A DNA stretch of 64,000 nt, from contig PAZH01000023.1 in NCBI GenBank assembly GCA_002716125.1, positions 38,278 through 102,277 of the forward strand, read 5' to 3'. Positions 9,446 to 12,469 of this stretch are shown here, piece by piece. The stretch is from Rhodospirillaceae bacterium. Its GTDB lineage: Bacteria; Pseudomonadota; Alphaproteobacteria; UBA8366. Below the pieces are notes generated by a model. That model ran no database searches and was not told the DNA's origin. It worked only from the letters and a program-made list of their open reading frames with translations. The number at the start of each line of letters is the position of its first letter. Positions within the stretch are counted from its first letter, which is position 1. Made by a program: the position numbers and the translations under genes.

Positions 9446-10633
9446 TTATTGTGTGATCGGCGGAATGGCGACGCAGGCGTGTCGTTGCGCCCGCAGATAC
9501 GAGCAAGACTTCACAGCGTCCCGCTGCGACATCCCAACAATTTGCGCCCGGTAGAGCCGGTTTCGCGCCTGCTGGTGCATGACGACGGCGACCCGACCGT
9601 GTTGGGCGACACCGCGATCCTGAAGACGGCCTGCCGCGCCGTATGCCGCGAGACGAGCCGCCGAGGATTGTGAGAAAGCGCCGACCTGGATGGCCCAACG
9701 CCGGACACGATCCCGGTTCGGCTTTGATTTCCGCGGATATGCCGCTTTTGCCAGGCGAATCTTGGCTTTCTTCGTCTTCTCGATAGCCTCCGCCGTACTG
9801 GTCGGGTAGTCGGTCTTTTTCTTAGGTATGAGGGCGTAGGCGCGATTAAAGAGTTTCCGCATATGACGGTCACGGCTTTTTGCTGATTTTCCGCCAAAGA
9901 CGACACCGATCAATCGGCGTCCATACCGTTTTGTCGACGCAACGAGATTGAAGCCCGATGCACGGATATAGCCGGTCTTGATGCCGTCCACGCCAGGGTA
10001 GGCGCGTAATAGCTTATTGTGATTGCGATACGTCCGCCGCTTGTAGCTGAAACGCTGCGTTCCAAAGAAATGATAAAACTGTGGGTAATCTTTGATCAGG
10101 CGGCGGGCGAGGGTCGCCATATCCCGGGCCGTCGAAATTTGGCGGCGATTGGGCAGGCCGGAGGCGTTTCTGAACCGGGTCTTCCGCATGCCGAGGGATT
10201 TCGCTTTCGCCGTCATCATTTTGGCGAAATTGATCTCTGTCTTGCCGAGCGCTTCCGCGACGACAACGGCAACGTCGTTGGCCGACTTTGTGATGAGCGC
10301 CAAAATGGCGTCTTTGACGGTAATCGTTTGACCGCGTCGCAAACCGAGCTTTGATGGCGCCATTCCTTGCGCGCGGCGCGAGACTTTCAGGCGTTGATTT
10401 AACTTCAGTTTTCCCCGTTCCAGCGCGTCGAAGACCATGTAAAGGGTCATCATCTTCGTCAACGAAGCGGGATATCGTCTGCGATCCGGGTTCGACGCGT
10501 GTAATACTTTGCCCGTTTGTTCATCGACGACGATCGAGGCGTATCGCGCGTTGGCCGAAGATTGAAAAAATGCGACGCCGAGCAGTAAAATAGAAATAAA
10601 AATAATATTCGTTTTAGTATTGTTTCGGATCAT
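9446..10633 (-). CDS. D-alanyl-D-alanine carboxypeptidase with SPOR domain
   Basis: A 395-residue penicillin-binding protein of peptidase family S11, which trims the terminal D-Ala from peptidoglycan pentapeptides in the periplasm. The N terminus is a signal peptide ending near SSANA (residue 29). The three active-site motifs are present: S57-L-T-K60, S117-A-N119 and K219-T-G. Instead of the usual DacA/DacC C-terminal anchor there is a very basic linker (about 270-310) and a SPOR domain beginning near RRWAIQVGAFSQ (about 312). SPOR domains bind denuded glycan strands at division septa, so the enzyme is probably directed to the septum. It is monocistronic and divergent from the phasin gene. 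Confidence 0.92.
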   Translation of the reverse strand: MIRNNTKTNIIFISILLLGVAFFQSSANARYASIVVDEQTGKVLHASNPDRRRYPASLTKMMTLYMVFDALERGKLKLNQRLKVSRRAQGMAPSKLGLRRGQTITVKDAILALITKSANDVAVVVAEALGKTEINFAKMMTAKAKSLGMRKTRFRNASGLPNRRQISTARDMATLARRLIKDYPQFYHFFGTQRFSYKRRTYRNHNKLLRAYPGVDGIKTGYIRASGFNLVASTKRYGRRLIGVVFGGKSAKSRDRHMRKLFNRAYALIPKKKTDYPTSTAEAIEKTKKAKIRLAKAAYPRKSKPNRDRVRRWAIQVGAFSQSSAARLAAYGAAGRLQDRGVAQHGRVAVVMHQQARNRLYRAQIVGMSQRDAVKSCSYLRAQRHACVAIPPITQ

Positions 10634-10871
10634 GGTGTCTATTTTACAATAATTCTTAGGCGTTAGATTTGATTTTAAAGCGCCGATTCCGATTCAGTAT
10701 TTGAATATTACTGATATCGCCGATTCGTGTCTACCGGAAATTCGTAAAAATTTCAAGATTCCCAACGAGTCGCGCCCGGTCTCAGTCGATCAATGTATTA
10801 TGCACGCCTTGTGCCGTATGAGCTGGAGCCCCCAATATACGGTAGGTCGCGTGAATTTCTCGGGTTCAATG
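10634..10871. other. Gene-free upstream region of the carboxypeptidase gene
   Basis: This is the left part of a 417-base spacer between the carboxypeptidase gene (minus) and the phasin gene (plus). It is AT-rich next to the carboxypeptidase start and should contain that gene's promoter, but I could not pick out convincing -35/-10 boxes. A 71-codon plus-strand open frame at 10701-10916 has no ribosome site and no recognisable protein character, and I do not regard it as a gene. The right part of the spacer holds the phasin promoter and operators listed separately. Confidence 0.6.
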
Positions 10872-10961
10872 CTGCGTCGCACTAAAAAATGCTGCAGTGC
10901 ACAAAAAATTGGTTGACATTGGAACTCAAGCCCATATATTCCCCGTGTTGCTGCGGTGCAG
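10872..10961 (+). promoter_or_regulatory. Three PhaR-like operator sites
   Basis: Three copies of a CTGC-N3-GCA(C/G) motif occur here: CTGCGTCGCAC at 10872-10882, CTGCAGTGCAC at 10892-10902 (exactly 20 bases on), and CTGCGGTGCAG at 10951-10961. The third is a perfect CTGC-N3-GCAG palindrome lying just downstream of the -10 box, over the expected transcription start. From published work on Paracoccus and Rhodobacter, the PHB-responsive repressor PhaR binds TGC-rich CTGC-N3-GCAG sites at phasin promoters and is released when polyhydroxybutyrate accumulates. Position and match make PhaR control of this phasin gene likely; binding itself is inferred. Confidence 0.65.
10913..10940 (+). promoter_or_regulatory. 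Sigma-70-type promoter of the phasin gene
   Basis: TTGACA at 10913-10918 and TATATT at 10935-10940 are separated by 16 bases, close to the housekeeping sigma-factor consensus. The predicted start near 10947 lies about 100 bases before the phasin ATG and is covered by a PhaR-like palindrome. This is the clearest promoter in the window. Confidence 0.75.
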
Positions 10962-10974
10962 CATAAAGATTTTA

Positions 10975-10992
10975 GTCACGCTTTTGCGTGAC
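10975..10992 (+). promoter_or_regulatory. Stem-loop in the phasin mRNA leader
   Basis: GTCACGC (10975-10981), a TTTT loop, and GCGTGAC (10986-10992) form a perfect 7-bp hairpin in the untranslated leader, about 30 bases after the predicted transcription start. It could protect the 5' end of an abundant mRNA. There is no U-run directly after it, so it is not an intrinsic terminator. Confidence 0.45.
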
Positions 10993-11050
10993 CGTTACAA
11001 ATAAAGGCGTTGCGGACGCCGTGTCAGTTAAAGGTCCAAGGAGACGAGAA

Positions 11051-11572
11051 ATGACCACCAAGAAGACGAGCGCGACCGAAGCGGCCACCAAACAAATCGA
11101 AGATGCGGTCGAAGTCGGTAAAAAATCCGTTGAGCAGGCAATGAAGGCTTCCACGGAAAGCTACGAGCAAGCCATCAGCATGACCAAAGAGCAGGTCGAG
11201 AAGGCGAGCGAAGCTTTCTTTAAGTCTTACGACGAAGCCACTGCGCTGAATAAAGAGAGCATCGACGCGGTCGTGAAAGCCGGCGAAGTCCTCACGAAAG
11301 GTGCGGAGACGGTCGGCAAAGCTTACTACGAATTCGCGCAAGCCTCTGCTGAAGCCAGCGTCGATGCGACGAAGGCGATGATGGGCGCGAAGACGGCAAA
11401 GGACTTCGTTGAAATCCAGGCCGAGTTCGCTCGTACGAGCTTCGATAACTTCCTTTCCGAGAGCACGCGTCTTTCCGAAATGTCCGTGAAAGTTGCCAAC
11501 GAAGCTTTCGAGCCGCTTCAGAAGCAACTCAACACGTCTTTCGAGAAGGCTTTCAAAGCGCCAGCTCTCTAA
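11051..11572 (+). CDS. Phasin-family granule protein
   Basis: A 173-residue, almost wholly helical, Ala/Lys/Glu-rich protein of the phasin family, the surface proteins of polyhydroxyalkanoate granules. The sequence is typical: a charged N terminus (MTTKKTSATEA), repeated amphipathic heptads, then the conserved core near VEIQAEFARTSFDNFLSESTRLSEM. The ATG at 11051 has GGAG nine bases upstream; an ORF start further 5' would lie in the mRNA leader. The promoter, three PhaR-like sites and the strong terminator downstream make it a single-gene unit. No PHA synthase gene is in this window, so a role in polymer storage rests on family and regulation. Confidence 0.9.
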   Translation: MTTKKTSATEAATKQIEDAVEVGKKSVEQAMKASTESYEQAISMTKEQVEKASEAFFKSYDEATALNKESIDAVVKAGEVLTKGAETVGKAYYEFAQASAEASVDATKAMMGAKTAKDFVEIQAEFARTSFDNFLSESTRLSEMSVKVANEAFEPLQKQLNTSFEKAFKAPAL

Positions 11573-11592
11573 GCGAAGACACATAAAGTTTG

Positions 11593-11657
11593 GCCCGATT
11601 TAATTCGGGCACAGGCACGGCCCCGCATTTCCCTCCCCTCCCCCTGCGGGGCCGTTT
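11593..11657 (+). terminator. Terminator of the phasin gene
   Basis: A small hairpin GCCCGA-TTTAAT-TCGGGC (11593-11610) precedes a strong one. In the second, ACGGCCCCGCA at 11617-11627 pairs perfectly with TGCGGGGCCGT at 11645-11655 across a 17-base loop, followed by TTTGCTGTTT. It looks like a factor-independent terminator ending phasin transcription. The same stem could also stop the convergent methyltransferase transcript, although that side lacks a clear U-run. Confidence 0.75.
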
Positions 11658-11686
11658 GCTGTTTAGAAGGTAGGGAAGGGCCCACG

Positions 11687-12469
11687 TTAGGATCGGGTGG
11701 CTGTACAATCGTAGAGGACGGTTCTGTTGATGCGGTTGATCCGCCGGCGGTGCTCCGGGATATCGGTGCTATGTGCTTCGAAGACCGCCATTCCCATCTC
11801 ACGTATTCTATCTGCATAGTCCCAGCCGCAAACGCGGACGTGGTAGGGATGACCGAACGCTTTATGTCGCTCGGACGGCGCGGTGATTTCCGAATCTTCG
11901 TAAGTAGATTGCCGGTCGCGATCGATCGGCACCATGATCAAGGCGTGCCCGTTCGGGTTTAAAACCCGGGAAATTTCCGCAATTGCCTTGCGGTCGTCCG
12001 GAATATGCTCAAGCACGTGGTTGCATATCACCACGTCGAACGCATTGTCGGTATAAGGCAAGTCCGTGAGGTCTTGCTGTTCGGCATTGGCATCGTCGTC
12101 GTATCGGTCGATTCCCAGATATCGAACGCGAAAATCTCGAAGCAACCGCTGCTGTATGCAAGCCTCGGGTGCCACGTGAAGAATCCGGCTTCCAGGACGT
12201 AAAATTCTTTGCCGTCCCATCATGTAGAGCCAGAGGAACCTGTGTCTTTCCAAGGAACCGCAACCGGGACATCTCGCATTCGGTCGTCCGCGAAGACCAA
12301 AGGCCGCGAAACTGCGATACCAAGACCCGCAAACCGGGCAATAGAACCGCGCGCCGGTCGCCTCAGCGCTAAACCGCGCGCTCTTACGTTTTATCACGCC
12401 GTAAGCCTGCTCGACTGGCATTTCAGCACTTCGAATTGCGTGAAGTCTTTGCCGCAAATCGGTCAACAT
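11687..12469 (-). CDS. Class I SAM-dependent methyltransferase with zinc-ribbon-like N terminus
   Basis: A 260-residue protein. Two CxxC pairs (C44/C47 and C67/C70) suggest a small zinc ribbon. A class I methyltransferase fold follows, with [15 protein letters not shown], the aspartate-rich [24 protein letters not shown] region, and [12 protein letters not shown]. The HVLEHI motif and a methyltransf_11-like core are typical of enzymes acting on lipids, glycans or small molecules. The substrate is not evident. An internal Met at residue 17 is an alternative start. It stands alone between the phasin terminator and the divergent clpS gene. Confidence 0.8.

Follow-up and report, generated by a model that had tools for sequence, protein, structure and literature searches.

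A phasin gene that stands in a stretch of DNA devoid of pha enzyme genes raises the question of how its promoter is controlled and whether the organism stores PHB. The gene lies in the window, the whole 64,000-nucleotide stretch analysed here, and its product matches the Phasin_2 family (PF09361; 83.1 bits, cut-off 24.9) and TIGR01841 (47.6 bits, cut-off 30.2) and scores below the cut-off of TIGR01985 (48.2 against 99.7 bits); the promoter upstream thus drives a phasin gene. Read from the sequence, this promoter is of the sigma70 type (TTGACA-N16-TATATT) and matches the consensus at 11 of 12 positions, and palindromic TGC-N3-GCA boxes flank its core. The features of the region are:

9446-10633, minus strand: D-Ala-D-Ala carboxypeptidase gene, on the other flank of the promoter region
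10870-10882, plus strand: distal PhaR-like operator A1 (TGCTGCGTCGCAC), core TGC-RNY-GCA
10889-10905, plus strand: putative operator A2 (ATGCTGCAGTGCACAAA), directly upstream of the -35 hexamer
10913-10940, plus strand: sigma70-type promoter (hexamers and spacer)
10913-10918, plus strand: -35 hexamer TTGACA, read from the sequence
10935-10940, plus strand: -10 hexamer TATATT, after a 16-bp spacer
10948-10964, plus strand: putative operator B (TTGCTGCGGTGCAGCAT), containing a perfect 15-bp palindrome
10975-10992, plus strand: leader hairpin GTCACGC-TTTT-GCGTGAC with a 7-bp stem, between operator B and AAGGAG
11038-11043, plus strand: Shine-Dalgarno sequence AAGGAG before the ATG, read from the sequence
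11051-11572, plus strand: phasin gene (173 amino acids, Phasin_2, PF09361, E = 1.8e-23)

An earlier note on this DNA had described a near-consensus promoter with three CTGC-N3-GCA-type sites, and all of these were re-located in the sequence: CTGCGTCGCAC at 10872-10882 is part of A1, CTGCAGTGCAC at 10892-10902, 20 bp further on, is part of A2, and the perfect palindrome TGCTGCGGTGCAGCA at 10949-10963, in operator B, lies over the predicted transcription start. Its statement that the sites flank the promoter needs one correction: both GCAC sites are upstream of the -35 hexamer, and only the third site is downstream of the -10 hexamer. A1 and A2 are both of the TGCTGC-N3-GCAC type (10870-10882 and 10890-10902); A1 is the weakest match, with a degenerate right arm, and falls outside the strict motif described below, which A2 and B fit. 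If transcription starts at about 10947, operator B would span approximately +2 to +18. Over the window, the short pattern CTGC-N3-GCA shows no excess over chance (8 matches where 7.97 are expected). When the whole window was shuffled 300 times with its dinucleotide content preserved, three distinct sites inside 100 bp arose in only one shuffle, and positions 10500-11800 contain 4 promoter-like sites where 0.7 are expected. The 15-mer of operator B recurs at C16:9621, upstream of a thiolase gene, and at C57:10463.

The remainder of the genome bears out the prediction that this organism stores PHB. Its assembly (4.78 Mb in 89 contigs, 87.6% complete, 5.5% contamination) contains one PhaR, on contig C16 (TIGR01848, 133.5 bits, cut-off 109.45), which carries both PhaR domains (PF07879 and PF05233), scores 92.8 bits for PF07879, lower than the 104-112 of most relatives, and has no sequence match among solved structures at E values up to 1. 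A class I PhaC is encoded on C23, the contig that also contains the window, about 53 kb beyond where the window ends (TIGR01838, 782.8 bits, cut-off 622.65), PhaB is encoded on C41 (TIGR01829, 340.1 bits, cut-off 302.1), and a PhaA-type thiolase exceeds the TIGR01930 cut-off (477.9 against 240.55) and falls below that of the narrower PhaA model NF042967. Both phaR and phaC, the genes whose absence would have spoken against a PhaR-controlled promoter, are therefore present, and a window without pha enzyme genes had correctly pointed to a PHB granule system elsewhere in the genome. The search for further sites, which the earlier note had proposed, also located them in front of two pha genes: in the PhaA-type thiolase gene on C16, a perfect operator begins 82 bp ahead of the ATG, and CTGCGTTGCAG lies 34-44 bp upstream of the phaR start. 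No core site was found in the stretches read for phaB and the class I phaC. At the pha locus itself (L012:2838-6879, G000 C16), phaR is divergent from a class III-like PhaC gene, which is followed by a MarR-type ORF (weak match) and next by the PhaA-type thiolase gene; this second, weaker PhaC scores 176.2 bits, below the cut-off of 365.3.

We then considered phasin loci of relatives, which we take to be Alphaproteobacteria, the same class. A phasin match is present in 83 of 144 genomes, our own included; among named records, similar phasins occur for instance in Hwanghaeella, Marivibrio, Nitrospirillum and Azospirillum. The 70 loci scanned comprise our own, the 29 homologs listed with it and 40 from lower-scoring matches, other weaker or paralogous phasin matches being left aside; the scan covered the 500 bp upstream of where the alignment begins, a point that differs from the start codon when a homolog is distant or partial, and in L176, where the contig ends, it covered 259 bp. 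Every one of the 70 loci has one or more TGC-RNY-GCA sites upstream and, together with the presence of phaR and phaC, this supports the earlier reading of the region as a phasin promoter of the PhaR-autoregulated type. In the 40-locus batch, 83 core sites fell in a nominal 20.0 kb of upstream DNA (19.8 kb real) and 13 in the other 49.4 kb. Two or more core sites were present in 63 of the 70 loci.

The sites are also arranged in a restricted manner. Pairs 50-70 bp apart occur in 60 of the 70 loci, with 2 pairs at 50 bp, 43 at 54-61 bp (41 of the 60 at 55-61 bp), none at 62-63 bp and 15 at 64-68 bp; among the first 30 loci, the longer class belongs to genus g6 of family f2 and to several f3 genera. 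Three loci of genus g11 (family f4) have sites spaced by 30-31 bp and two other f4 loci by 60-61 bp, and adjacent sites are 17-23 bp apart, as A1 and A2 are, in 13 cases across the 70 loci. The upstream member of the pair ends in GCACAA in 44 of 60 pairs, A2 being the operator of this position, and the downstream member ends in GCAGCA in 30 and GCAACA in 10 of 60. Hexamers were placed in the first 30 loci (L051, a contig edge of 130 bp, was dropped from the profile): in 26 of them the paired sites enclose a TTG-type -35 element and a best -10-like hexamer with 3-5 of 6 matches, the placement in L057 being probably spurious. This conserved geometry, with GCACAA-type arms upstream and GCAG-type arms at the start, may explain why published consensus sequences differ, and from the narrow range of spacings one may suspect that the two operators cooperate. 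Simple helical phasing does not fit all classes: spacings of 20-22, 30, 58 and 67 bp share no single phase, and the two spacing classes, set beside LacI-like bridging, differ by about 9 bp, which is no clean helical turn.

Is PhaR the protein that would recognise these sites? The sites could instead be operators of another regulator that recognises TGC-N3-GCA, and we looked at this using the strict pattern WTKBTGCRNYGCAVMAW, which has an RNY centre and AT arms, with the reversed pattern as control. The RNY centre and the AT arms are needed because the looser TGCTGC-N3-GCA (29/42 on the two strands against 28/37 reversed) and TKBTGC-N3-GCAVMA (14 against 11 reversed) are not enriched genome-wide, whereas the strict motif occurs 12 times in our own genome against once reversed. 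A PF07879 match is present in 92 of the 144 genomes, our own included. The strict motif was counted 706 times (22 reversed) in these 92 PhaR-positive genomes (356 Mb), 86 times (9 reversed) in the 52 PhaR-negative genomes (100 Mb) and 42 times (9 reversed) in the 45 genomes with neither PhaR nor phasin (74 Mb), counts that are partly so by construction as the pattern was drawn from 61 sites in the phasin loci of 28 relatives in the same genome set. The reversed control is also an imperfect null, since PhaR-negative genomes still exceed it. The motif is thus denser where PhaR is present, in a raw comparison uncorrected for phylogeny, base composition and genome size. Seven of the 83 phasin-positive genomes have no PhaR match (G010, G016, G019, G031, G061, G106 and G109), and the phasin loci read from six of them (all but G061) each still carry upstream sites, as expected if a different protein used them; however, the missing PhaR is likely due to incomplete assemblies, even though G109 is rated 100% complete. 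Given that motif density follows PhaR, that sites also precede the phaA-type gene and phaR, and that PhaR sites mapped or tested in Ralstonia, Bradyrhizobium and Sinorhizobium agree with the motif, we consider control by another regulator very improbable. That PhaR would activate, or both activate and repress, at this promoter, as activation is reported for Ralstonia phaP3, seems to us likewise very improbable: the phaP3 promoter is reported to be sigmaN-like, whereas here a near-consensus sigma70 promoter has sites on either side and B lies at the predicted start, which is the repressor layout of phaP1.

The leader hairpin, which had been described as an element of the phasin promoter layout, did not prove to be conserved among 28 leaders. 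Regulation of the phasin mRNA by this hairpin might be suspected from its perfect 7-bp stem, which was matched in 3 of 100 shuffled leaders, and from GTCACGC-N4-GCGTGAC having its single exact genome match at this position. However, the folding energies of the 28 leaders (our own included) have a mean z of only -0.6, and stems with a shuffle P of at most 0.05 occur in 4 of 28, with sequences that differ, so a role for the hairpin is unlikely. As judged from these comparisons, it is probably lineage-specific or a product of chance and probably lies outside the switch. The palindrome of the hairpin was also considered as a second operator and rejected, as the genome contains no further exact copy and three places with one mismatch.

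The region is therefore very probably a PhaR-repressed phasin promoter. In the scheme that we propose, in which the start site, the binding of PhaR, its repressing effect, its release by PHB and any operator cooperation are all inferred, PhaR would sit on B at the start site and on one or both of A2 and A1 upstream of the -35 hexamer when the cell contains no PHB granules, and its presence on both sides would shut out RNA polymerase by steric exclusion. Once PHB accumulates, PhaR would be drawn to the granule surface and leave the DNA, phasin would then be made in proportion to the naked polymer surface, and PhaR would return to the DNA when the granules are coated. The hairpin would not be needed in this scheme.

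Having a strict motif at hand, we considered which other genes could be PhaR targets. The 12 strict sites of our own genome lie at the phasin gene (two), the thiolase gene, and genes for a MaoC hydratase, malate synthase G, an RND efflux adaptor and a sulfonate-type binding protein (below cut-off), at serC or its neighbour, at a 69-amino-acid ORF with no Pfam match, in a small ORF/HAD-type gene region, at an unassigned place on C67 and in a terminator-like hairpin. The upstream 400 bp of phaR contain a core site in 14 of 31 loci (our own and 30 listed), against about 3 estimated from the background of the 40-locus batch. The MaoC hydratase gene (L068:1009-1470, G000 C18), beside a riboflavin kinase/FAD synthetase gene, has a PhaR-type site about 42 bp upstream, and its product matches structures of (R)-specific enoyl-CoA hydratases (5cpg, E = 1.2e-29; 1iq6, E = 5.9e-22), so that by sequence a PhaJ-like function is likely. 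A core site precedes this gene in 26 of the 30 orthologs listed (our own included) where 0.8 would be expected, and two sites 19-20 bp apart occur in 10 of the 30; 29 of these loci come from our organism's own order and one from another. The hydratase gene is consequently a candidate PhaR target, which, if real, would tie the supply of monomers from fatty acids to the granule surface.

Two candidates were set aside. Malate synthase G has a site 119 bp upstream in our own genome, but a core site was found at 3 of 25 loci, where about 1.7 are expected (25 of 30 loci listed, our own included, the last five, partial or weak, being left out), and the site at C27:49186 lies inside a terminator-like hairpin and is regarded as a false positive. 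Other sites were observed in the genome. A PhaR-type site (L018:1522, G000 C84) lies between a Crp/Fnr-type regulator gene and panC (TIGR00018, 276.3 against a cut-off of 212.75); one of its arms is imperfect, and 76 bp separate its first base from the panC ORF. A perfect TGCTGCGGTGCAGCA (L013:1964, G000 C57) lies about 130 bp before the 69-amino-acid ORF, and the ORF that follows we take to encode an HtpX-type protease. The palindrome TGCTGCGATGCAGCA (L014:1710, G000 C63) lies between an ORF with no NCBIfam match and the RND efflux adaptor gene, and two TGCTGCGATGCA sites (L015:1815 and 1948, G000 C79), 133 bp apart and in opposite orientation, lie near the starts of two ORFs, presumably an HTH regulator and an amidase-like protein.

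Work on Ralstonia, Bradyrhizobium and Sinorhizobium has already described PhaR boxes and phasin promoters with two operators. According to published studies, phasin genes are repressed by PhaR, which shows a sigmoid curve when it binds the phaP promoter region and is itself titrated by PHB. What is possibly new here is the wide conservation of the spacing and the site before the MaoC/PhaJ-like hydratase gene. Tentatively, and with somewhat less than even confidence, we suggest that in Alphaproteobacteria one PhaR tetramer bridges both operators of a bracket with two spacings, GCACAA-type upstream and GCARCA-type at the start, and that the hydratase gene is a conserved member of the order's PhaR regulon. 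The literature searched contains no report of such a class-wide bracket or of the MaoC target, which is weak evidence of absence given that the original Paracoccus and Rhodobacter work lies outside it. The motif and spacing rule could serve to locate PhaR regulons, and the phasin genes themselves, in bacteria that have not been cultured.

Comparison with the known systems reveals both shared and divergent features. In Sinorhizobium meliloti, phaP1 and phaP2 each have two palindromes per promoter, with AT-rich arms that match the motif here, and removal or mutation of the palindromes abolished PhaR binding (PMC12542648); by the listed coordinates, 18 and 28 bp separate its paired sites, which flank the -35 element, unlike those in the window. 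The PhaR (AniA) regulon of Sinorhizobium includes panC with a putative PhaR site (PMC12542648), as a site also lies upstream of panC here, and the efflux gene SMc02868 is listed with a PhaR-like site (PMC12542648). The phbA promoter of Sinorhizobium is described as unaffected by phaR, whereas in our genome a perfect site precedes the phaA-type gene. In Bradyrhizobium diazoefficiens, PhaR is mainly a tetramer in solution, its binding is lost with PHB, and phaP1 has two footprinted GCACAA-type sites (PMC6201568, PMC10888616); these, at -101 and -72 from the ATG, 29 bp apart and 6 bp either side of the -35 element, sit astride it, whereas the sites here lie upstream of the -35 hexamer and at the start. 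The Rhodobacter sphaeroides PhaR site, CTGC-N3-GCAG (cited in PMC12542648 and PMC3206438), is matched exactly by operator B, and the A sites differ from it in their GCAC right arms. In Ralstonia eutropha, granules sequester PhaR, the palindromic PhaR motif YTKNTGCRNYGCANMAR coincides with the motif here, and footprinted phaP1 sites lie upstream of the -35 element (BS1) and around the start (BS2) (PMC12849132, PMC3206438); for this promoter a comparison with LacI has already been made. A third Ralstonia phaP1 site is predicted in the coding region, whereas the third site here is A1, 20 bp upstream of A2. Overall, the layout in the window is that of Ralstonia phaP1, found in an alphaproteobacterium rather than a betaproteobacterium.
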